From positions 22,957,703 to 23,021,702 of the forward strand of contig NC_045146.1 in the NCBI RefSeq assembly GCF_008831285.2: a stretch of 64,000 nucleotides of DNA, given 5' to 3'. Made by a program: the position numbers and the translations under genes. Under the pieces are notes generated by a model. That model was not told where the DNA came from. It searched no databases and saw only the letters and a list, made by a program, of their open reading frames with translations. This stretch comes from Nymphaea colorata. Its lineage: Eukaryota > Streptophyta > Magnoliopsida > Nymphaeales > Nymphaeaceae. Positions 1-62,781 of this stretch are shown piece after piece. The number at the start of each line of letters is the position of its first letter. Positions within the stretch are counted from its first letter, which is position 1.

Positions 1-3000
1 TCTAGCTGAAATACAGTACAGAAATCAAATTTCTGAGTCGCAATCGACCTTTGTGAGATCTGCCAACGTTATATGAAATCACAGAATAGAAGGTAATGGG
101 ATCCCGACGATCTAAGCAAGAGGGAAGAAAACCTGGCTTTTAAGCTGCTTGTTTACGTCTCCAAGATGACGCTCCTATTGATCAAAACGTAGCCAAGTTA
201 AGTTGGAGAACATCAGAGCAAAGTGCACTGGTGCATGAGTTATGTCAACCACTTGCTTTATTTATTCAAGGGTGGGACCATGTTTCACATTTTAAAGGAA
301 AGTTGATAGTTGCAGTAAGAATTGAATTGTACCAACTACACAGCCTTTTAAACATTTGGGAATAATAGTTCAACAGTTCACAGCTCAAAGCCTCAAACAC
401 ATACCTTTTTCCTCAGCTCATCCATTTGCTCCATCATTATCTGTGTCTGCATTATTAGCAGGTCGAATCAGTAGAAGTTTGATTCATTATGTTCTTGAAT
501 TGCGTTGAAGAGCACTTTTCCAGAATTATGATGGAAGAATTCACTGTGAGGAATAATTGAGCGATATAAATCAGAAAACATGTAACAGTGGGAAAACAGC
601 ACTACCTTTCTTTGCCTGGCTTGAGAGAGTGCAGTTTCAAGCTGCCTCTCAAGTTGTTGCAGTTCCTTCACACTCAGTGGGCCCAGATCTTCCCCCAGCA
701 GATGCCTGCGAGGAAGCACAATACTTAATATTGAAACGACGCAAAACAGAAACAGTGATTCCAATTCCTTGATCCTTTTTTTTACCTCTGGGAACGTTGT
801 AAAGCTTCGTATCTGGCCTTCAACTTCACAACTTCTTGGTACCAGTTCTGTTATCAAGATTTATGCGGAAATTATTCAAGTTGGTCAAAATTCATTTGAA
901 GCAGGGAAAGAACGGAAAGAAATGAAACTTCAGTGGCAAAGACAATTTCTTCTTTTTTCATCCACGAACTGCAGGCAACGAACATCTACTGATCACTTTT
1001 TAGCACAGAGAATGCCAACGCAGATGCGTTACGTGCATGCATATGCATCACGCGCATGACTTACATTTTTTTGAACTTTCTCTGCAGTGATGGATTTGAA
1101 GTAATCTAAAACAAGATAGGAGCATCATTGAGTAGACTCTGAATCCATGATCAAGCTCACTTGATAAACTAAATCATACTTCCCAAAGGATATGCTTCTT
1201 GGGTCCTTCGTCTTGAGTGCGACAGACCATAGAAAATGAAAATGAAAATGGAGGTTCATGTGCATTAGTTGACTAGACTATTCTTCCTCAATTTCAGTTA
1301 CAAAAACAAGGAAAATTTACAAATTCGAAGCTTCCTGTAGTAAACTAGGAAGGCACGCTATCCTTTTTCTGACCAAGCTAGGTTTTGCGTTGACAAAAGA
1401 TTATGCCAAGAGGCATGCCCAAAAGTCATGTGAAGACAAAAACACAAATTCCGAATCCTGACAAAAATGAGTTACTTAGATAACGTCAAGTGAATAGACG
1501 TCCAAATATTAATATCTAACTCTTGCCCTTTATTAAGTTGAATTTCTTAAACCAAACCTCTTATCAGATTAATGAACCGACTGTTGTAATCTTTCAGTTG
1601 AAGTTTTATTTGTGCTGTTATTCAGTGTCAAACAAAGTTCTTCTAAAGGAATTCATCATTCAAGTGGCTTTTATACACTATAAAAGTTGCTTGACAAACA
1701 GTCTTCTCACAGCATGAAATTAATTAGATTTTGCACTTTCACCAGTCTGGAGACAGATTAAATCAGTGTGGCCCAGGCCTACCCACCTAATAAAGGGAAA
1801 AAAATTCACATTCATTTGTTCATAGGAAAATGGCAATAGATATGGGCCCCAATCTTTAGCGGAAGAAATTCAGTTAACTTAACAAACTGATTTTGATCGT
1901 TAATGTCTACTGTAACCTCAGAAGCGTATAATGATCTACATCCAGCGCTTGATGATTATCTGAAACCTGAATAAACAGCTATTATCTTAAACTGAAAAAA
2001 CTATGACAACAAGGTCGAAAATTTCAAAAAGTTTGACAACCCTATCGGGCTAGGTGAGGGACTTAGGCACTTCGCCATGCAGAATCAAACCTATTCTTTA
2101 ATACATGACATCGTACTGTGGAAACTAGAAATTACTGCAAAGATTAGTTTGCAATACTTTGGCGATACATCAATCAAGTTCTACGCCCATGAAAACAAAC
2201 AGGTCTTATGGAACTTATTTGCCTACAATTGCAGAAAATTACTCCCACAAGAAGTATTTTTACGCGATAAACAGAGTCTATAGTATGTTGGAAAGACATC
2301 CAGTGCTGAAGATGCTGGAATCCTTCGAAGAAAGGAAGTACATCAATGACAAAAACTTCAGACAGAAGCTTGTGCTTAATGTATAACTTGTCGAGTCAAT
2401 GAGTCTCTTGGGCTATAATTTCTGGAGTTCTATGGAAATTTGTTCTCTAGTTACTTTTCGCCTATAATGCATGCGAAAATGTTGGAACTTCATATTCTAT
2501 GTAGAGACAAATTAACCAACAGTTACATATGTAATCCCGATAAAAAATATACTTGTAATAGCACCTATTTGGCAATTTCACATTCTATATTACCCTTCAG
2601 GCTTCGCAGAATATACCAAAAAGCTTTGCAAATACTTCTGTGGCATCAAAATATATATCAAACCATCTAAAATAACACAGTTGCTAAACATACTTGTGTT
2701 TCGCGAGCAGCAGTAGTGTTGTCCAGTGGGTTGTAGTTGCATCTTTGGTACCTTTCAAGAGTTTTGCTCATACTGCAGCAACATTAGGAAGGGGAAAAAG
2801 AGAGAAATTTGCATTGTCAGACCCATATCTCCGCAGAGCAGAAAACTAAAACCAGCCAGAGGATTAAGAAAAAGGAAGCTTTCTTTCTCCAAAAGAATAC
2901 TAATGATTTTTGTTATTTCCTACTTACCTGTGTTTTCAATTTAAGTAATGATAAATCATGAAGAAGACTGAAAAAGAGAAACGATCTTGGCTGATAAGGC

Positions 3001-6000
3001 AGCATTTCATCAACAAGAACTGTACAAAATAGAAATGATCTTGGCGTCGTTCCTGAACATACATGATGGTTCTGAATTTCTCCATTGAACGACACCGAAA
3101 TTATACGTGGATAAGTTTAGCATTCCCATCTTCAGTACAATGATCATAAGCTTGGACAAGGTACTTCACAGCACTTTTATGCATTTTTCCTGATTTTTTT
3201 CTCCTTATAAGCTGATGCAATTATGCCATTATGACTTTGGAAACACTAGCAACTATAAGCATTGATACGGTAATAACAAATGCTTTACAAGATTTAGAAA
3301 TATTCTTAATCTCTTCTATCCATGAACTTTTCACATAAAAAGAAAAATAAATCATTAGTTCCAAAATTAATATAAAAACCACACAGTGGGGGGTTATCTA
3401 GAAGAAATTGCTGAGGGGATTGGGAGGTTTCCGCTAGTCGCCAACTACCAGGATGTCAAAATTTAAGACACCAACTATGTCCTCCAACGATGATGAATGT
3501 CTTGAATTTTATGGTGCATTTTCATAGCCATACGATGCAGCAATTAAAGAATATTATATCGTTAAAAGACTAATATGCATTTTTAATCGATCGAACATTC
3601 TTTTCTCGTAGTTCTTTCGTACTTTTGTCTTCTTTCATTAATAAAGCCGCACTGTATGCATGCACGTGTACACAAGCACATTCACACACCATATCCAATT
3701 TTTTTCTAGCTTTCATCAACGCTTTCTGTCCCAAACACGTCAAAGTCAGTGACTGACATTGACACCCATGCAGGGTTAAAAGCAACGACAACGATTGGCA
3801 AATGCAGAATGATCATCAAGTTGAAATTGGAAGTCTCTCTCTCTCTCTCTCTCTCTCTCCATAAACATAGCCACGCATACATGAATACATACAGTGGACA
3901 TATGCACGCACATACATATTTATGGTTCCTCTAGTAAGCTGCTTGGGTACTGCATGCATGTCATCAAGAATCACTAAAGCACAACACAAACGCAAGACCT
4001 TGCTTTTCTAGTGAACCAGATGGAAGGAATGTAATACGTAAGAGAAGCAGCAGCAAACTTCTACCGCCCATTCGAAAAGATCCCCAAAAAAAAAGGTAAA
4101 GAAGCTTATGTAAGTGTAGAGACAAACAGCCTCAACATACTACAAATTTTAGTGAACTTTTGATGCATTCGACAGCATGCACTCTGTACATGCAAATCAT
4201 AATCAAATATATAATGAAATCTTGTAGAGTGAATTTGAGTCGATGATTGTACATCTCGGCCTTTCTGAACTATAAGCAGCATGTTTCTCACAGACATAGG
4301 GTTGCTGAGTTTTATGGAAGATGCAGTAAGCAACAAATTTAGGGAAGTTTGCTTTGTTCCATTGGAGCTTCTATAGCATGGTCGAGTACTCCTGTAAAAA
4401 ACATACGAGTTTCTGTGTTTTATGATTTGATCGAAAGGCTTTCTGTCATTTGTCATGGACTCACCAACAAGCTACGTGTCAAGTCTCACCATCCATTCAA
4501 GCAGAAGGACAATGAGTCCTTTGCATAAACTCTTCAAGATGACCACCAGAAGATAGATCCAGCATGTCTGAAGGTGAGCTGTCGAATGTGTGTATTTCTT
4601 AAAATATTTTAACATGTATGTCTGTTCTTTCAGAGACAACCATAGCTGACAACTTTCTATGCCATCTATGAACATTTGAGTATGTGTTGTTCACCAGCCA
4701 TTTCTCCGACTTCAGTAAGAACGTTCAGATTATTCTCTTAACTTTTTCTGGTAGAAATCTGTATTTAGTACGTGGAATTATCTGCCTCTTTTTTTCCTTG
4801 AAATAAGTTATCTGAGTTGATTGCAAAAGCAAGAAGCATCAATAATATAATCAACTTTCCGGTTAATGAAAAGCTCATCCTGATCGACTGTCAAAAAATT
4901 AATAAGAAAATGTTTACAGTTTGTCAGACAACTAAAAAAATAAAAAATTTAAACAGTTGTCTTATTTAGAGGCCTAGAAAGAAAATTAGGCTGTTGCCAG
5001 GAAGCTCCTTCTCGTTTTAGTAATTTCTTGTGAGTTGAGCAGACGCTCTCAAACCCTTAATAAAAGGAAAAGATAGCCACTGGGGATGCTCCAACCACGA
5101 CTCAGTAAAGGAGGGTTCGCTCGAAGAAGACCTAAAATGCTCACTAAGCACGAAAAAGGAAGGAACATTGATCTGAACAAAGTCAGTGACCAATAAAACG
5201 TTTTCTTTCTTTAAATGAGAAGATGGAACAGGTAGTACGGGTGGAAAGAAGCAGTTGGCATCGCACTATACTGAGAAATTACATCAGATAAGCAGAAAGA
5301 TGAGATTTAAGGCCATTAAACGAGCAGAAGAAATTGGTGCCATCCTTGCAGTCTGGGAAACTAGAGTCTGGTTTAGTTCTCCGAAAACACATCAAAACAG
5401 GAAATCCTTCCACGCTTTATCTCTTTTTTGGGGGTTTCTTCTAAATTTCTCTGTAAGGCTTTCGCCATAACCCCCAACAAGAATCAACCTTCTCTCCCTC
5501 GAAACAACACACAAGCATGCAAGGAAGGCAAAGGAAATGACCAGAAGAAGAAAATATCTTACCTCTTCGATCCCATAGTCCCCCTCATGAAACGCATCAG
5601 GAACTAAGGTTAAGTTGACGGATTAAAGATTAGAAGGGTCCCTCTTGCATATTGTATTATAAGATCTTCCATTTGCAAAAAGAAGAAACTTGGACCAAAT
5701 AAAAAGAAAGTTGATCTGAAGATCACATCGGTGAACAGCAAGATGCTGATGACAGTAGTGAAAACCCTAGCCTTTCCTATCAGGAAAAATTAAAATAAAC
5801 TATGTATCAACTTTCCAAAAAAATATATATCCGTTTTGAGGTTGGGCGGTTGAGGGGTTGGGGGTTGGGTGTAGACGTGAAACCCTAGTTCTGTGTAGAA
5901 CAACAATCGAGGTGGAGTTCTGCTATGAGGGAACTCATGCAGAAGGCATGTGAGAGAGAAGACAGTACGTTATCGTGTCCAGTTGCTATTCGCTCGCAAC

Positions 6001-6754
6001 TGCATGCCTTCGGAAAAATAAACTCCAGAGGGCAGAATTCCCCACATCTGCACCTCGTCCGGCGCGTCACTTCGTAGGTTCGAAGCAATAAACGGATATA
6101 TTATCATGCAAGCAGCAGTGGCACCGGATCTTCTCTTTTCCTGTTTTCACTTCAAGGAATTCATTAAGCTTTTATCCTTTGTGTTGCCTCCATGACTTGG
6201 TTAACCATTACAGTCATTGATTCACACACACACTCTCTCTCTCTCTCTCTCTTTCTTGCTCCCTCTCTCACATACATACATGCAGACTCTCTGATCTGCT
6301 TTTTTGTTTTTCCTCTGTGTAAATGCATCAAGGTTGGTATTACCCTCATCCCCAAGGCCCCATTTCAGTTAATTATTTATTAAAAACTCTCTCTCTCCCT
6401 CTCACTGAAGGAAGTAGTAGAAAGAAGGGAAAAGATCGAAGTAACGAGAAAAGGGAGAGTCTCTCAATCACATCGAATGTAATAAAAGAGAGACGAAGAG
6501 GAAAAGGAGAAAGAAAATTAACTAAAGGGAAAGCGGAAGAATATGGAAAAGAGAAAACAAGAAAAAACTCACCCAGCACTCCCGAATTCGTAGAGCTTTC
6601 CGCGGCTGGAGAAGATGATGAGTGCAACCTCAGCATCGCACAACACAGAGAGCTCGTACGCCTTCTTCAGAAGTCCATTCCTTCTCTTAGAGAAGGTTAC
6701 CTGACGATTTATCTTGTTCTCTATCCTCTTCAACTCGACTCTCCCCCTCCCCAT
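1..6754 (-). CDS. AGL6: AGL6-like MADS-box transcription factor (3' end cut by window edge)
   Basis: MIKC-type MADS-domain transcription factor of the AGL6 subfamily, nuclear, expected to act in floral-organ and floral-meristem identity in complexes with other MADS proteins. Coding exons by GT-AG sites and phase: 6573-6754 (182 nt, MADS domain, residues 1-60), 2694-2772 (79 nt, I region, [14 protein letters not shown]), 786-847 (62 nt), 606-705 (100 nt, K box, [19 protein letters not shown]), 405-446 (42 nt, [14 protein letters not shown]), 133-174 (42 nt, [14 protein letters not shown]); an acceptor at 6-8 opens exon 7 at positions 5-1. Sizes 182/79/62/100/42/42 are the family pattern and the frame stays open. 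FGSAG at the end of the MADS exon and the K-box wording favour AGL6 over SEPALLATA. The start is the ATG before [13 protein letters not shown]; an in-frame extension upstream lacks ATG. The C-terminal AGL6 motifs lie outside the window. Confidence 0.94.
2773..6572 (-). other. Long first intron of the AGL6-like gene
   Basis: A 3.8-kb intron follows the MADS exon, with donor GTGAGT at its 5' end and acceptor CTGCAG just before exon 2. Large first introns are common in MIKC genes and often carry regulatory elements. I saw CT/GA microsatellites near 3835-3859 and 6233-6251 and no other coding sequence. The short open frames inside resemble no protein family. Confidence 0.8.
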
Positions 6755-6787
6755 TTCTTGCGATGATCTCTCAAGGCACAACCCTTT

Positions 6788-31053: not shown

Positions 31054-34000
31054 ATGATGGGAGATAAAGGAGGAGAAAGTCAGATGAAGAAGCACTCGTC
31101 ATCATCATCAAAGGACCCACCGAAAGAAACAACAGGAGAGATTGTGGTTGTATCCACAGAACAGCAAGTTTATGAAAATCCTAACCCTAATCCCAACCCT
31201 AACCCCAATCCCAATCCCAATCCGAAGAGAATCAGATACGGAACTGGGCAATGGAAGCCAGTCAACCCCCCGCCGCCGCCCCCACCACCACCACCGTCAA
31301 GCTCACCACAGTTCCAAAATCAACCTCCGGCGTCCTCATCACCGGCCACTTCCCACCACCAACCTCTGCCCGCTACGGCTGACTCTTCGTCCCCCGCAAC
31401 CTCCACTCCGTCTCATTCCCCTCGGCCTTCCTTCTCCGCCGCCTCCGACCAACACCACACGTCCAACCCGGATCACTACTTCCAGCTGCGCAAGGGGAAG
31501 TACGTGAGCCCAGTGTGGAAGCCTAATGAGATGCTGTGGCTGGCGAGAGCTTGGCGAGTACAGTACTCCGGCGTCGGCGGGGAGAGCCAGGAGGGCAGCG
31601 GCGAGATCGTGCCGTCGGGGAGGGGTAAGAGCCGGGCGGAGAAGGACAAGGAGGTGGCGGACTTCCTCAACAGCCATGGCGTGAACCGTGACGCCAAGAC
31701 GGCGGGGACCAAATGGGACAACATGCTGGGGGAGTTCAGAAAGGTGTACGAGTGGGAGAGAGGACCGGAAAGGGAGCAGGTGGGAAAGAGCTACTTCAGG
31801 CTCTCCCCTTACGAGAGAAAGATACACAGGCTGCCGGCCTCTTTCGACGAAGAGGTTTACGAAGAGCTATCGCAATTCATGGGGCTCAGGACGAGGGCGT
31901 CTCAGGCTACACGAGCTTCATCTCTCGGCCGCGGCGGTGGCGCCACCACCACTTCTACCACTGCTGAACCTTTCAGAGAACACCTTTCTTACAAACCGGA
32001 TATGGTCAGAACGAGCAGAGATGATTCATCATCAGGTGCATATTAATGGTGTATTACCTCTTTTGTTTGTTGTTGGTCGTCTATTTTATGAGAATTGACT
32101 GGTGGTTGGTGGTGAGGTAGGTGCAGTTATGCGGCAACTGGCGGGCGTGGCCGGCGGAGAGACGTCGATGGCGCCCGGAATGGGGCTTCCGAAGCTAGCG
32201 GGAGAGAGTCCAGAGCAGGGGTGCGGCGGGAGGGAGCTGAGGAGGATAGGGAAGGTAAGGATGACATGGGAGGAGTCGGTGAACCTTTGGGCGGAGGAAG
32301 GGGAGTACCAGAAGGGCAGGTTGAGGGTGGAGGGCCTCAGCTTCTTGAACGCGGAGGAGCTGACGTTCCTGGACGACTCCATGGTTGCCAGCAGCATCGA
32401 GACGTTCGAGGAAGGGCCTCTCAGAGGGTTCTCGGTGGACAGGTTCCTCTGTGGCCAGCAGATCAAGGTGTTTGGGCGACGGAGATCCTCCTCGTCCGGT
32501 TCGTCTTTCCATGCACCAACCACGCTCTCCTCTCCAAGCACTCTTACCTACACACGGCTCTTTTTATGGAGCTTTGTGATTTCTGTAATGCGTGCAACAC
32601 ACACACACATGCATGTGTTTGGTGCGATTCTGTTGTCTACTGGTTTGGTATTTCAGTTCGTGTTTGTGTTTCTTTCAGGCAGCGGCGAAAGGATACAGCA
32701 GCCATTACCGGAGCCGTTCATCAGATGTAAGTCTGAGATCTTTTATGTCATTTCATGTAATCGGCTTGACACGCACCGAGGACGGCTGCCTGCGTCCTTG
32801 CGCTGAAATATTTGGATTGTTTGTATTGGCTAATTGCAAGGTGGTGCCTGGGGAAGGTTCATCACTTGAAATAATCCACTTGGCATTTGGCAATGATAAA
32901 TGCATAAAACAGTATAGAGAGACCTGCGTATCTCTTTGGGATAATATTATTAGATTCTACTTGGAATACTGCGTCAGATTCAATTCGGGAATACTGAATG
33001 ACAAAGAATGCTCCATGTCAACTCAACTTGCGTATGCTGTCTCTTCCAGAAGCGAGACTGTATTCTTCTTCGTCGCTGTGGTTTTCAAAGAAAGCGGAGT
33101 TTCAATTCCTATGTTGACGTGACTCGGGGATCTCTCTCTCCCCCCCCCCCAACCTCTCTTTCTCTCTATAGGCCTGATATGGTGCGTCATACCGGACCAT
33201 TCAATTCGTGATAGTAATGAGACAAGGAAAAACTAGAGCTGAATCATATCTGAAACGTTTCATTTGGTCTCGCTTGAAGTGTAATTTGAAGCTCCTTTTT
33301 AAGCGTTGATATGAACCATGGGTGGTCGGCTGCCCACCATATCTGAAATAGAAAGATCAGACCCTAACATAGATAATAAGCTGTCTGTATAGATACATAT
33401 CCTGAGATATTTTCCTTGTATCATATTCTTGTAGGCTTGTGGTGCCATTTCCACGCACTTGCTAACATTTTGGCTCTCTTTCTGATGTTGGTGCAGCGAT
33501 TCCTCCATTAGAGTACCAAGATCGAACCGACTACTACGTGGGGTGCTTAAGAGTGCCAACAACATCGACTCTACCCAGCCTGCTTGAGCTATCATGGCAC
33601 TTGCAGGAGCCACCGCCCGAGGAGTTCCGCTTCCCCTTGAGACGGGAGGTGTTTCGGGACCTCCCACCAGGCAAGGAGCTCTTCTTCACCCCTTCGTCGG
33701 ACCTCGACTCTCGTTCATTCGTGTACGAGATAGTTGGCCCCCTGATCAGACCAAGCACCACGGCCACCACCATCACCAGAGATTCGTTCATCCCCCTATG
33801 GGACGACTGCGTCAACCGCATCATCTCTCGCCTCTGCATCCTCGACATTCTCCTCATCAGAAAGCCAACCACCACCACCGCCATATCCGCGCCGTCTTCT
33901 TCCTTCTCTGAGACCGTGCAGGACCAGTGGCCAAATGTAACAGGCTTCGTCAAGAACTTGTGCCTATGGCGAGGTGAGGAGACCGATCAAGTTCGAGAAG

Positions 34001-34911
34001 GTGGCCCCAATCCATCGTCAACCATACTGGACAAGCTCCTCTGGACTTTCGGCGACCTGCCCTACCTCCTGGGCTACCACGCCGTCGGCCACACCGTCAC
34101 GTTTTGCGCGCTCAGCCGTTCCCAGGACCGAACCACCCGCACCGACCTTCTCAACGTCGACCTCTCCACACCATCAGAACGGATCAAGGCGTTGGTCCCT
34201 TGCTGGCGCATCTCCAATCTCCTCCCTCTCCTTGCCGACCACTGCTGCTCCAAGCACACTGGCTCGTGTTGCTTCAGCGACTACCAGAGGCTGGAGAGAG
34301 GAAGAGGCAAGGTGGTGGAGATAATGCCGACGATAGTGAAACGGATCTTCCCCAACAGGAGAAGGTGGTCGGCGATGAAAGAGATCTACGATTTCTTAGA
34401 CCACAGGGTACCCCACGCCGAGTATCTGTGCGCAGCGTCGGAGAGTGAGCTGGCTCTGGTGTTCAAGCCCAGGGGATGCGGAGCTAAGCCGACGAGCGTG
34501 GAGCAGCTGGTGGAGGCGCTGAAGTTCGTGACGAAGGCGCTGGTGGCGCTGCACGATATGTGCTTCATGCACCGGGATTTGGGGTGGGAGAACGTGAGGA
34601 GGAGGGTGGACAGGGAGGAGTGGTTCATAGTGGACTTCGAGGACGCGATAGGGTCGCCGCAGATCTACCCTCACAGCGTCAGCGGGGTCAGCCATGCGCC
34701 GGAGATGTCGAGAGGGGTACACGGCGTGAAGGTGGACGTGTGGGGGGTGGGCCACCTCATCCGGACCAGCGGGGTGAGCGTCCCGCAGCACCACCTGCTC
34801 AAGGACCTGCAGAACCGCTGCCTCGAGCAGAATCCGGAGCAAAGGCCCACCGCCGCCGACTGCTACCACCACCTCCTCCAGCTCCAGTCCTCCCTCGGAG
34901 GGGCCTTCTGA
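31054..34911 (+). CDS. Trihelix (SANT-like) DNA-binding protein fused to a C-terminal kinase-like domain
   Basis: Four coding exons: 31054-32035, 32121-32498, 32679-32726, 33497-34911. GT-AG sites and phases (1, 1, 1) join into 940 residues without a stop. In order: Asn-Pro repeat (about 42-57), Pro-rich run (72-81), trihelix/SANT-like domain (about 150-255; W155, W162, W221), conserved middle region (about 328-600, including EYQDRTDYYVGCLRVP and FIPLWDDC), then a kinase-like domain. There I see V-F-K793 (candidate ATP lysine), H828-R829-D830 with N835, D849-F850-E851 in place of DFG, A870-P871-E872, D883-V-W-G and R919. Middle and kinase-like regions share exon 4. N-terminal halves resemble Arabidopsis homeodomain-like/trihelix proteins; the kinase part recalls HRD-type kinases also seen in fungi. 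Likely nuclear; target genes and substrates are unknown. An alternative acceptor at 32126 would delete two residues. Confidence 0.85.
31171..31230 (+). repeat. Coding hexamer repeat (CCYAAY)n, Asn-Pro dipeptides
   Basis: Within exon 1 of the trihelix-kinase gene, six-base units such as CCTAAC, CCCAAC and CCCAAT are repeated about eight times and encode Asn-Pro dipeptides. Several units equal or nearly equal the CCCTAA telomere-type hexamer, but the variation at the third and sixth positions fits slippage under coding selection. Confidence 0.8.
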
Positions 34912-41284: not shown

Positions 41285-44200
41285 TCAGCTAACTGGCGGG
41301 TTCTCCTGTGTCACAGTAGTACTACTCTTGCTCCCCCTTCTCAAGGAGACACCAAGCTGATTGGAGACTGTCTTGCTCACAAACCGCCCGGCTTTGCCCA
41401 GCCCACTTCCAACGGCGCCGATTCCGGTTTCAACCAGCCCTACACCAGCTCCCAAGCCGCTGCCAACCAAGCCCACGCCTGCACCAACCCCTGAGCCTAC
41501 CAATGAAGCAGCACCATCCAGAGCATCTATGGTGCTCCCTACAACACCAGCTTCCTTCAACTTCTCCTTTTCCTCTAGCATTTTCTTTTCCTGTTCCATG
41601 GCTACTAACTGCTCCTCTTTGTTAAATTGATGGTACGAGGCCTGTAGACGAACCATCGTTGGAGGACCATATGTCAGAAAAGCATCAATTGCTATTTTTC
41701 TAATGATGACTACCGATGGTACAATAGAATCAATCTTTTTTCTCTTGCTACTATTTTGTTAATACAAAAGCATGAAATGCCAACCTTGATGGTAAGAGTT
41801 CCTCTATCCTTCTTATCTTTGATTTTAAGCATATCAAATGCAGGAAGCAATCTCAACTCTAGCACATTGAGCTCTTCAATATCCAAATCAATTAGAGGAA
41901 TTTTCACCACACCCAATCTCTTATCGTGTCCGATATCTTTGTCAAGGACCTGCAATCATATCAAGTGAAAAGTTCAGTCGCCTGATTTCTATGTTCTCTT
42001 CAACAGGCATATGCACAACGCAGACATGCTGGGAGATGTATTTTATTTGTGTGTGAGAGGGAGAGGGAGGCAGAACACTGGAACCAAGGTTTCACTTACC
42101 TGGTCTACTACAAGCGAGAAACAGGATCATCTCTTATAAAGCAGTGAGTTTTCAGGTTTCTCATTTTCTACAGTTTATAGTTCTTAGTGGTCCTGGTAGA
42201 CTAAGCAACGGCGTTTCAGTTCTATGTTATGTCCAAAGCATAAATATAGCGTGTTAGTGTGGAAAGGATAGGCATGTTGCTTACAATACACAAAATAGAA
42301 AACAAAAACAAAAATAAATGCTAACAACGAGTAAAGTGCGTCGCAAGACCTCAAAGAAAACTGCCTGAGTTTCCTTGTCCTCCACAATTAGCTTGAAAGT
42401 TTCATTCCACACCGGATTTAGGTTGTTGTCGATCACTTTAGTTTTAACCTTGAATAGGGGACGGACGTGCACAAGAACATAAGGATCAGAACTCCCGATC
42501 ATCTCCATGTTTTTCAGACCATTTGCTTTCACGACAGTTACGGTGAGTTCACCCTGTGGTCTAAGCTCCAATTCACTGCAGAACAGAGCAAAACCCACAA
42601 ATCTCGTCATAGAACAAAAAGAACTTTAGTATCTTTTATCAGTGTAGATTAAGTGTGCTATTCAATTTAAATTCAAGTGGTATCCCGTAATCCTGCAACC
42701 ATTATATGGACCAGATTGACACGTATAAAAAATTCATGGGTATGTAATGTTTATGCTAGAAGTACAATGCATCAAAAATCCTTCACCATGCGCTGATATA
42801 TGTCCAAGGCCAACCAAAAACCTGTTACGGTACTTTACATCAAGACAATAAAAAACATATTGCAGAATTGTGCATGTGATGTTCACAAAAAGCAAAGTTA
42901 AACAGCTTAAATTTTAAAGTTACTTTGACCTGGGAAGGTTCACGTTAATGAACATATAAAAGTAAATCTTCGTTTGCTTCTTCTATCCTACACCAAAGCA
43001 GATTTAAGTAGTTTTTCAATGGCTCAGCTTATAAACTCGTTTTCAAGCACCATTTCTTCACAGATATTTACTTAAAAAGAAGAGGAAAGGCTAAAAGCCT
43101 AAAACTACATAAGCTTGTCAGTCCTTACTATGTCTAATGTATACAGGAGTAGAAACAGACAACGTGTTTGCCTCCGTTGACACATTACAGTAAGGACAAA
43201 AGGAAGAATTCATAACAAAAATAGACAAAAAATTCAGGAAAGTACCTGGTATCCACAGACACACCTCCAATTGGGACAACAATCCTATGAGGCCATTGCA
43301 GCATATCGGCAACAATGTTTTGTACAGTATCCTATCACATGGAAAGTCGGAATAAAGATATTGTCGTTTATGTTTTGATCACGTAAAAAATTAGCATATA
43401 AGTAGATATTGTCAAATTTATTTATTTTTTTATTTGACATACATCAATCATGTCTGAAAGTCCTGGAACTGCAGTCAAGCTACCTCCAACAGCCTTCAGT
43501 TTGTAATCAATTCTAGGCTCTGGCTGCAATCAAACATCGTTAATTAAATCCATTTTCAAATGCAACCAACGAAGGCAATATTAAATATGCTATAACAAAC
43601 TCGTAAGCATCATCCATCTTGTCATATAGGCAGTGAACAGCAAGCAAGCTAGTCCATAATCCTTCTAAGAACATACAACTATTATAAATGTGTAAGGGAC
43701 AACAGAGAAGACAACATTTGGAGGGCTTCCTTCTAATTACAGGCATAAATGGTTGATGTTGAATAAGTGTTTGGTCAGGTTCTCAATGCTTTTAGTCCGA
43801 ATTCATTAGACAGACGTTGGTTGAATTGGCTTTTGCAAGAAACAACAACACATCTGAACTAGTGATTGGTTGGGTTCTTAGGTCTCAACGAACACACTGA
43901 GAATTCTTTTTGCTATTGGTTGTGTGATGCTTTTCTTTTCAGTATCAATGTATTGAAAGCAGCTATATAAGCTAATAGCACCTGCTCTGTCAACATACAA
44001 GTGCGTTAGCGTTGGCTGACCCTCCTCACTGTTTTAATTACGAGAAGTTCTGTAATCTAAATTGCTTACACTTGTTTCATTAGCAAACCATAGTGTCCAC
44101 AAAATATGAATCGGCCTTTTTCAGATGAAAATCATTAGGGATAAGCAAGCAGTGCTGAAACATACCTCAGCAAGAAGTGCTGCAACAACTGCAGAAATGC

Positions 44201-61746: not shown

Positions 61747-61851
61747 AACCGACGCTCGTCTTCCCTCCCTCCCTCCCTCAATTACAGCAAAAGAAGAAGG
61801 AAGGAGTCTTTTGGGGAAGGGAAATAACCCATTTTCCGTCTTGCTTCTTCG

Positions 61852-62781
61852 ATGGCCTTTCTCCTTCTCACATCACTTCTGCTCCTCTTCATCCCCTCAC
61901 CGACCCCCGCCAAAGCAGACTTCGCCACCGCCCGCTCCCTGGACGCTCTCCTCCAGACGTATACATTCGATTTGTTTCGCCAGCGGGCGAAAACCGGCGT
62001 CGTCTACACTGCCGATCTCCCGGGGAACTTATCCGGAGTCGAGGCCCATGGCATCCGATTCCGCAGCGGCAGCCTCCGGAGGCGCGGGGCGAGCCCGATG
62101 GAATTCGATTTCCCGGTGGGAACTGTCGTTCAGCCGTACGTCACGCGCCTGATCGTGGTTCTGCAGAATCTGGGCAATCGATCGGCGGATTACTACGATT
62201 ATTATCCGGCCGGGTTCCGGCTGGTGACACCCGTTCTGGGCTTCCTTGCCTACGACGCCGCCGGTTCCAGCAATCCGGCCTCCCAGAAGGAGCTGGACAT
62301 GGTGGCTACCGGGTCGGCCATAACAATCAATTTCACGAGTACCATCCGGTCCGGGGACGACGGCAATGCATTGTGCGTGTTCTTTGACGTAAATGGTACC
62401 GTGGCTCTCGGGAATCAGACGGCCAGGAACGTGTGCAAGAGTTCCCGTCAGGGGCATTTCGCTCTGGTGACGAAGGAGAGTCCTTCACCGCCGCCGCCAT
62501 CGCAGCCGCCTGGCGCTGCTCCTGGAAGAGGGAAAAAGTCGGGAAAGTGGAAGGTGGTGGTAGGGGCGTTGGTGGGAGGCGTGGTAGGAGCGGTGCTTCT
62601 GGTCTTGTTGGTGGCGGCGATCATCAGGATGCAAAAGAAATCGAAGATAGCGCGGATGGAGCGGCGCGCCGGGGAGGAGGAGGCCTTCGGGACGGCGACG
62701 GTGGGGCAAGCTAGGATGCCCATCGCCTCCGCCATGAGAACGGCGCCCGCCATTGAGAACGATTACCGCCCTGGAGATTGA
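61852..62781 (+). CDS. DUF1191 family type I membrane protein
   Basis: Single-exon frame of 309 residues. An N-terminal signal peptide (about 1-22, MAFLLLTSLLLLFIPSPTPA) precedes the DUF1191 region (about 23-205), recognisable from ALLQTYTFDLFRQRAKTGVV, RFRSGSLRRRG, PVGTVVQPYVTRLIVVLQNL and the late ALCVFFDVNGTVALG and QGHFALVTK blocks. A Pro/Ser spacer (about 208-225) leads to one transmembrane helix (about 235-258, VVVGALVGGVVGAVLLVLLV) and a basic then acidic cytosolic tail of about 50 residues. Several N-glycosylation sequons (NLS, NRS, NFT, NGT, NQT) support an extracellular main domain. The family is plant-specific and its function is unknown. High GC at third codon positions contrasts with the flanks. 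The start is the first ATG that yields the signal peptide. Confidence 0.94.
   Translation: MAFLLLTSLLLLFIPSPTPAKADFATARSLDALLQTYTFDLFRQRAKTGVVYTADLPGNLSGVEAHGIRFRSGSLRRRGASPMEFDFPVGTVVQPYVTRLIVVLQNLGNRSADYYDYYPAGFRLVTPVLGFLAYDAAGSSNPASQKELDMVATGSAITINFTSTIRSGDDGNALCVFFDVNGTVALGNQTARNVCKSSRQGHFALVTKESPSPPPPSQPPGAAPGRGKKSGKWKVVVGALVGGVVGAVLLVLLVAAIIRMQKKSKIARMERRAGEEEAFGTATVGQARMPIASAMRTAPAIENDYRPGD

Follow-up and report, generated by a model that had tools for sequence, protein, structure and literature searches.

A probable AGLF/SlGT11-type gene of Nymphaea colorata is predicted to combine a trihelix-type and a kinase-like domain in one protein

We found, in a window of 64,000 nucleotides of the Nymphaea colorata genome (contig NC_045146.1, positions 22,957,703 to 23,021,702; coordinates below are those of the window), a gene that couples a trihelix-type domain to a kinase-like domain. 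We consider it highly probable that this is an AGLF/SlGT11-type gene, whose single protein carries both domains and acts in the nucleus in the manner outlined below. The combination itself is already known from flower-development genes of Medicago and tomato.

The gene is composed of four coding exons:

31054..32035, + strand: coding part of exon 1 (residues 1-327), with the Pro/Asn-rich N-terminus and the trihelix-type domain; in-phase splice
32121..32498, + strand: exon 2 (residues 328-453), without Pfam match
32679..32726, + strand: exon 3, 48 nt, phase-symmetric and skippable
33497..34911, + strand: exon 4, with the middle region and the kinase-like domain; stop codon at 34909-34911

Splicing these exons gives 940 residues and a stop without any internal stop, the three introns run from GT to AG and every junction is in phase 1, which reproduces the four-exon model with agreeing splice phases of the original prediction. 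The middle and kinase-like regions had also been predicted to share one uninterrupted exon, and both indeed lie within exon 4, which has 470 open codons. In 1000 first-order Markov simulations of matching length and composition, the longest open run in any of the six frames averaged 164 codons and never exceeded 362.

Within exon 4 we distinguish the following features:

33499..34209, + strand: middle region, spanning residues 471-707 and without any Pfam match
34339..34383, + strand: candidate β3 lysine K751 (IVKRIF) and candidate αC glutamate E765 (MKEIYDF), placed by spacing only
34495..34761, + strand: best stretch of the protein kinase C-lobe match (residues 803-891), PF00069

A kinase fold had been predicted at residues 780-935, and the profile search bears this out. 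PF00069, with a cut-off of 31.7 bits, matches the whole protein at E 1e-7 (32.1 bits) and residues 724-940 at E 1.5e-9 (38.1 bits); the score lies above the cut-off for the whole protein and for exon 4, so that a C-terminal PKc domain, as described for the AGLF/SlGT11 group, is found in the same protein. A search of the PDB with exon 4 (E up to 1) returned 121 distinct sequences, of which the best 60 are without exception protein kinases (lowest E 0.013), and a phmmer search with residues 708-940 (E up to 0.01) returned 88 matches, the best 60 again all being protein kinases (best E 0.0011). Weak unrelated Pfam matches were to APH, HEAT_Maestro and Docking (E 0.07-0.5). A FunK1-type kinase was considered and rejected, as Pkinase_fungal matched at E 0.15 with the whole protein only and was absent from the pieces. 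The middle region gave chance-level PDB matches only, 34 of the 35 being to prion protein and one to a phosphoglycerate mutase, at E 0.38 and above.

By sequence, the recognisable kinase part is the C-lobe only. The best Pkinase stretch covers about positions 95-187 of the 263 positions of the profile, beyond the N-lobe, and a PDB search with the N-lobe piece alone returned no kinase, its three matches, at chance level (E 1.2-1.6), being to neryl- or related diphosphate synthases. Alignments to DYRK2 extend across the N-lobe piece at E 0.0013, without a clear motif. An AlphaFold model built without relatives had a mean pLDDT of 34.1, with 458 of the 470 residues under 50. The landmarks HRDLGWEN (residue 828), VDFED (848; DFE at 849), APEM (870) and VDVWG (882) align with the matching segments of Aurora A and PAK, in agreement with the predicted HRD...N, D-F-E, APE and D-x-W-G. 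The predicted K is not exact. The lysine within residues 780-935 that fits it best, K793 (VFKP), precedes the histidine of HRD by no more than 35 residues, a distance that places it in the hinge, and a β3 lysine is expected further upstream; moreover, the PF07714 stretch that starts at residue 783 enters the profile at position 95, beyond the N-lobe. K751 and E765 are candidates guessed from their spacing, and no profile or model backs them.

It is possible, in our view doubtful, that the same gene encodes a catalytically active kinase-like domain that phosphorylates proteins at bound promoters, a reading compatible with the explanation we prefer. The domain retains the HRD aspartate and the catalytic-loop asparagine (HRDLGWEN) as well as the aspartate of DFx (VDFED), and its Pkinase score is above the curated cut-off. 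However, G replaces the catalytic-loop lysine in HRDLGWEN, DFE replaces DFG, the N-lobe was not found by sequence, and the available descriptions of the relatives mention no kinase activity. The prediction that one protein may both bind DNA and phosphorylate is thus upheld by the profile searches as regards the pairing of domains, whereas its phosphorylation part finds no support in a C-lobe with these two replacements. An extended version is improbable: in it, a DNA-anchored, catalytically competent atypical kinase, joined to the trihelix-type domain before the living flowering plants diverged, would phosphorylate its partners on the promoters of floral homeotic genes.

The trihelix-type domain lies in the N-terminal half of the protein, within exon 1:

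31513..31773, + strand: trihelix-type (Myb_DNA-bind_4) domain (residues 154-240), Pfam PF13837

Measured against a cut-off of 27 bits, PF13837 scores 21.6 bits with the whole protein (E 2.9e-4) and 25.7 bits with the isolated region (E 1.5e-5). When this region was searched against the PDB at E up to 10, there were two matches in all, and both are GT-1 trihelix structures (2jmw, E 0.62; 2ebi, E 0.65). The assignment to trihelix therefore appears as a sub-threshold but consistent signal, in line with the trihelix-type N-terminus that had been predicted, and provides the N-terminal-half Myb/SANT-like or GT1 domain of the AGLF/SlGT11 group at a score slightly below the cut-off. Across the genome searched (407,766,735 bases, 783 contigs), PF13837 gave 56 matches at E 0.001, and the trihelix-kinase gene was not among them; this, the sub-threshold score and a helix 2 lacking tryptophan speak against the AGLF/SlGT11 reading. 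The best likeness of the trihelix region to other genomic places is 29-33% identity, at six places among 53 matches. Searched against the genome, exon 4 found its own locus as the one identical match, and beyond that two kinase-like sequences that matched weakly (E about 0.0015); exon 4 has no full paralogue in the genome and is single copy.

The family definition calls for some care. In the strict sense, trihelix proteins have a conserved tryptophan in each of three repeats (PMC4195496). Here W155 and W221 are present and helix 2 has none; a weak alignment (E 0.62) puts a D opposite the helix 2 tryptophan of GT-1, so that a tryptophan is not found in each repeat as the strict definition asks. 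One tryptophan is replaced in other trihelix subfamilies too (PMC4195496). Because the helix 2 tryptophan is missing, we speak of a trihelix-type domain and assign the gene to the AGLF/SlGT11 group alone.

Next to the splice phases, coding potential was assessed by base composition and codon usage. At third codon positions, GC reaches 0.71-0.85 in exon 2, in each half of exon 4 and, from residue 136 onwards, in exon 1, compared with an intron GC of 0.39-0.45; the first 135 codons are without this signal (0.51). In a small codon-usage test (training set of 317 codons), the kinase part obtained its top score, 0.157, in the frame of the gene, with negative values in all others; counting against the model, the middle region reached -0.124 in the frame of the gene and was outscored by one reverse frame (0.008). 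Omitting exon 3, and thereby joining exon 2 to exon 4, keeps the frame and gives a product of 924 residues, and intron 2 (180 nt) is open in the frame of exon 2. As exon 3 is phase-symmetric and intron 2 is open, these two are the least certain parts of the gene model.

It is very unlikely that the locus holds two adjacent genes or separate transcripts, that is, a trihelix gene made of exons 1-3, followed by a kinase-like gene whose start lies in exon 4. Such a split would suit the tiny, skippable exon 3, the 770 nt of intron 3 and a gene model known from DNA alone, but the spliced frame is open throughout, and a two-domain protein is described in Medicago and tomato. Scarcely credible is membership of another group of chimeras, the trihelix/amino-acid-kinase type of AT3G10030: that group is described as likewise coupling a trihelix domain to a 'kinase', and rice Os4g33300 as a chimera with a C-terminal kinase domain of unstated kind that has lost its trihelix domain, but the above-cut-off matches of the C-terminal half are to Pkinase only, and no Pfam family of amino-acid kinases appeared at E up to 5 or 10. 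AT3G10030 is thus alike in having a trihelix domain and a kinase-named enzyme domain, and differs in that the latter is an amino-acid kinase and not a protein kinase. Our literature search on rice Os04g33300 returned orthologue tables alone, in bamboo and wheat papers.

Two parts of the gene also occur elsewhere in the genome:

30699..31461, + strand: promoter, 5′ UTR and first ~135 codons, a stretch present in dispersed hAT-like copies; at least 39 other places, 69-97% identity
32160..32326, + strand: exon 2 segment, a separate capture; two places (L041, L042), 94-96% identity

The 5′ stretch matched 58 pieces at 69-97% identity in at least 40 places including the gene itself, where same-strand pieces less than 1,500 bases apart were joined into one place; the 39 other places are a lower bound because 40 of the 70 candidates were scored. 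We retrieved 22 of the 39 (L021-L039, L014, L017 and L018) and found that the copies have flanking sequence in common that is missing from the gene. Element ends were sought in seven copies (L021-L027). In two of them (L024, L025) the 8-bp target-site duplication is perfect and the 25-bp terminal inverted repeats, starting TAAGGCTGGGCA or TAAGCCTGGGCA, are imperfect, the duplication of a third is alike at 7 of 8 bases (L021), only the right end was found in three (L022, L023, L026), and L027 had no clear target-site duplication. Elements of the hAT superfamily have 8-base duplications and ends of this kind, and by this fit several copies are clearly hAT-like transposons. Twelve copies (L028-L039) lie in a much longer repeat, about 88-99% alike over up to 3.3 kb, that contains part of the 5′ stretch. 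At the protein level, stops interrupt some of the matches to the copies, with three of them in the best copy, and some of the short matches are free of stops.

Since the copies carry element sequence and ends that are missing from the gene, we prefer to explain the 5′ stretch in the copies as a gene fragment captured by hAT-like elements. The opposite direction, from transposon to gene, is disfavoured, the gene in the window being without the element sequence and ends common to the copies. Of the two places with the exon 2 segment, L042 is a 771-bp element with a perfect 8-bp duplication (TACCATGC) and similar ends, and the segment was captured separately and, to judge from its 94-96% identity, more recently. 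It therefore appears that one type of element picked up parts of the gene on at least two occasions. The dispersed copies of the promoter and 5′ end also deserve attention in their own right, for example with regard to small-RNA cross-talk. We also observed that the Asn-Pro repeat of the N-terminus (window 31180-31230) is encoded by telomere-like CCCTAA/CCCAAT repeats, which probably account for some of the weak protein-level matches in the genome.

Other genes were noted in the window. A MADS-box gene occupies about positions 1-6755 on the minus strand, with a K-box at 471-860 (E 7.7e-13) that we take to be SEP/AGL6-like from its sequence, and, near 6755-6570, a MADS domain that can be recognised by eye; some 24 kb separate its start from the AGLF-type gene. 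Two further domain matches were obtained, and 7 of the 10 open frames searched in the window had no domain match at E 0.01:

42284-42625, - strand: piece of a C2 domain gene (E 6e-19)
61828-62778, + strand: DUF1191 protein (E 4.6e-59)

From its architecture, domain order and size, we infer that the trihelix-kinase gene is a member of the AGLF/SlGT11 group. AGLF of Medicago truncatula is described as an activator of MtAGa and MtAGb that measures 1,008 aa and contains both SANT/MYB and protein kinase domains, and the pea orthologue PsAGLF carries the annotation 'Protein Kinase domain' (PMC13122891). AGLF, also called AGTFL, is further described as nuclear, with Myb/SANT-like and PKc domains, and mutants are stated to show its floral C-function in Medicago. 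For tomato SlGT11 (Solyc03g006900), the account gives an N-terminal GT1 and a C-terminal PKc domain, a nuclear GFP fusion, and a mutant with carpelloid stamens, a phenotype unlike that of Medicago. Cucumber CsaTri9 (CsaV4_3G001721) is listed as a predicted nuclear protein of 960 aa in the SH4 trihelix subfamily with a PKc_like superfamily domain; in the part of that source available to us, the kinase-like domain alone is named in its domain description, expression rises in four infections, no genetics is given, and only DNA-binding domains are given for the GT-1, GT-2, GT-gamma and SIP1 members (PMC12750867).

As the relatives in Medicago, tomato, pea and cucumber are described as carrying the kinase domain, the extension belongs to the group. 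The original prediction had asked whether it was general or restricted, and for several eudicots published work answers in favour of the former; a restriction to the N. colorata genome is ruled out by these published relatives. The architecture, which the original prediction took to be rare, is a stable one that is present in published relatives. Four scans for relatives in GTDB contigs and IMG/VR gave 11, 3, 70 and 17 pattern-matching stretches, none of which was confirmed.

Members of the trihelix family are known for recognising GT-type sites. Under the AGLF/SlGT11-type reading, the water lily protein would enter the nucleus, its trihelix-type domain would bind sites in target promoters, probably of the GT type, and the protein would switch on the target genes, described for Medicago as the inner-whorl orthologues of AGAMOUS. 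The kinase-like domain would most likely be an interaction or regulatory module of the complex, with atypical catalysis as a possibility. By analogy, the nuclear and floral role of the relatives may be common to the N. colorata gene. For At5g51800, the Arabidopsis homologue of SlGT11, a knockout without floral identity defect is described, and the floral role is therefore not universal.

An AGLF-type gene in Nymphaea colorata would make the fusion older than the split between the water lily line and the eudicot line, and so date it before water lilies separated from most other flowering plants. The water lily gene makes it testable whether the C-function role is ancestral, as in Medicago and tomato, or was lost or gained, as Arabidopsis without a floral phenotype would suggest; its likely near-basal position among flowering plants lends it modest interest.

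Taken together, the gene compares with the known systems as follows. AGLF has the same pair of domains in 1,008 aa as against 940 aa, a likeness by description and not by sequence. In SlGT11, both the pair and the order of domains are alike, again as described in the literature and not by sequence comparison. CsaTri9, with 960 aa compared with 940 aa, has the kinase-like domain in common with the water lily protein, whose length is close to 960 and 1,008 aa by a loose measure that we set ourselves.
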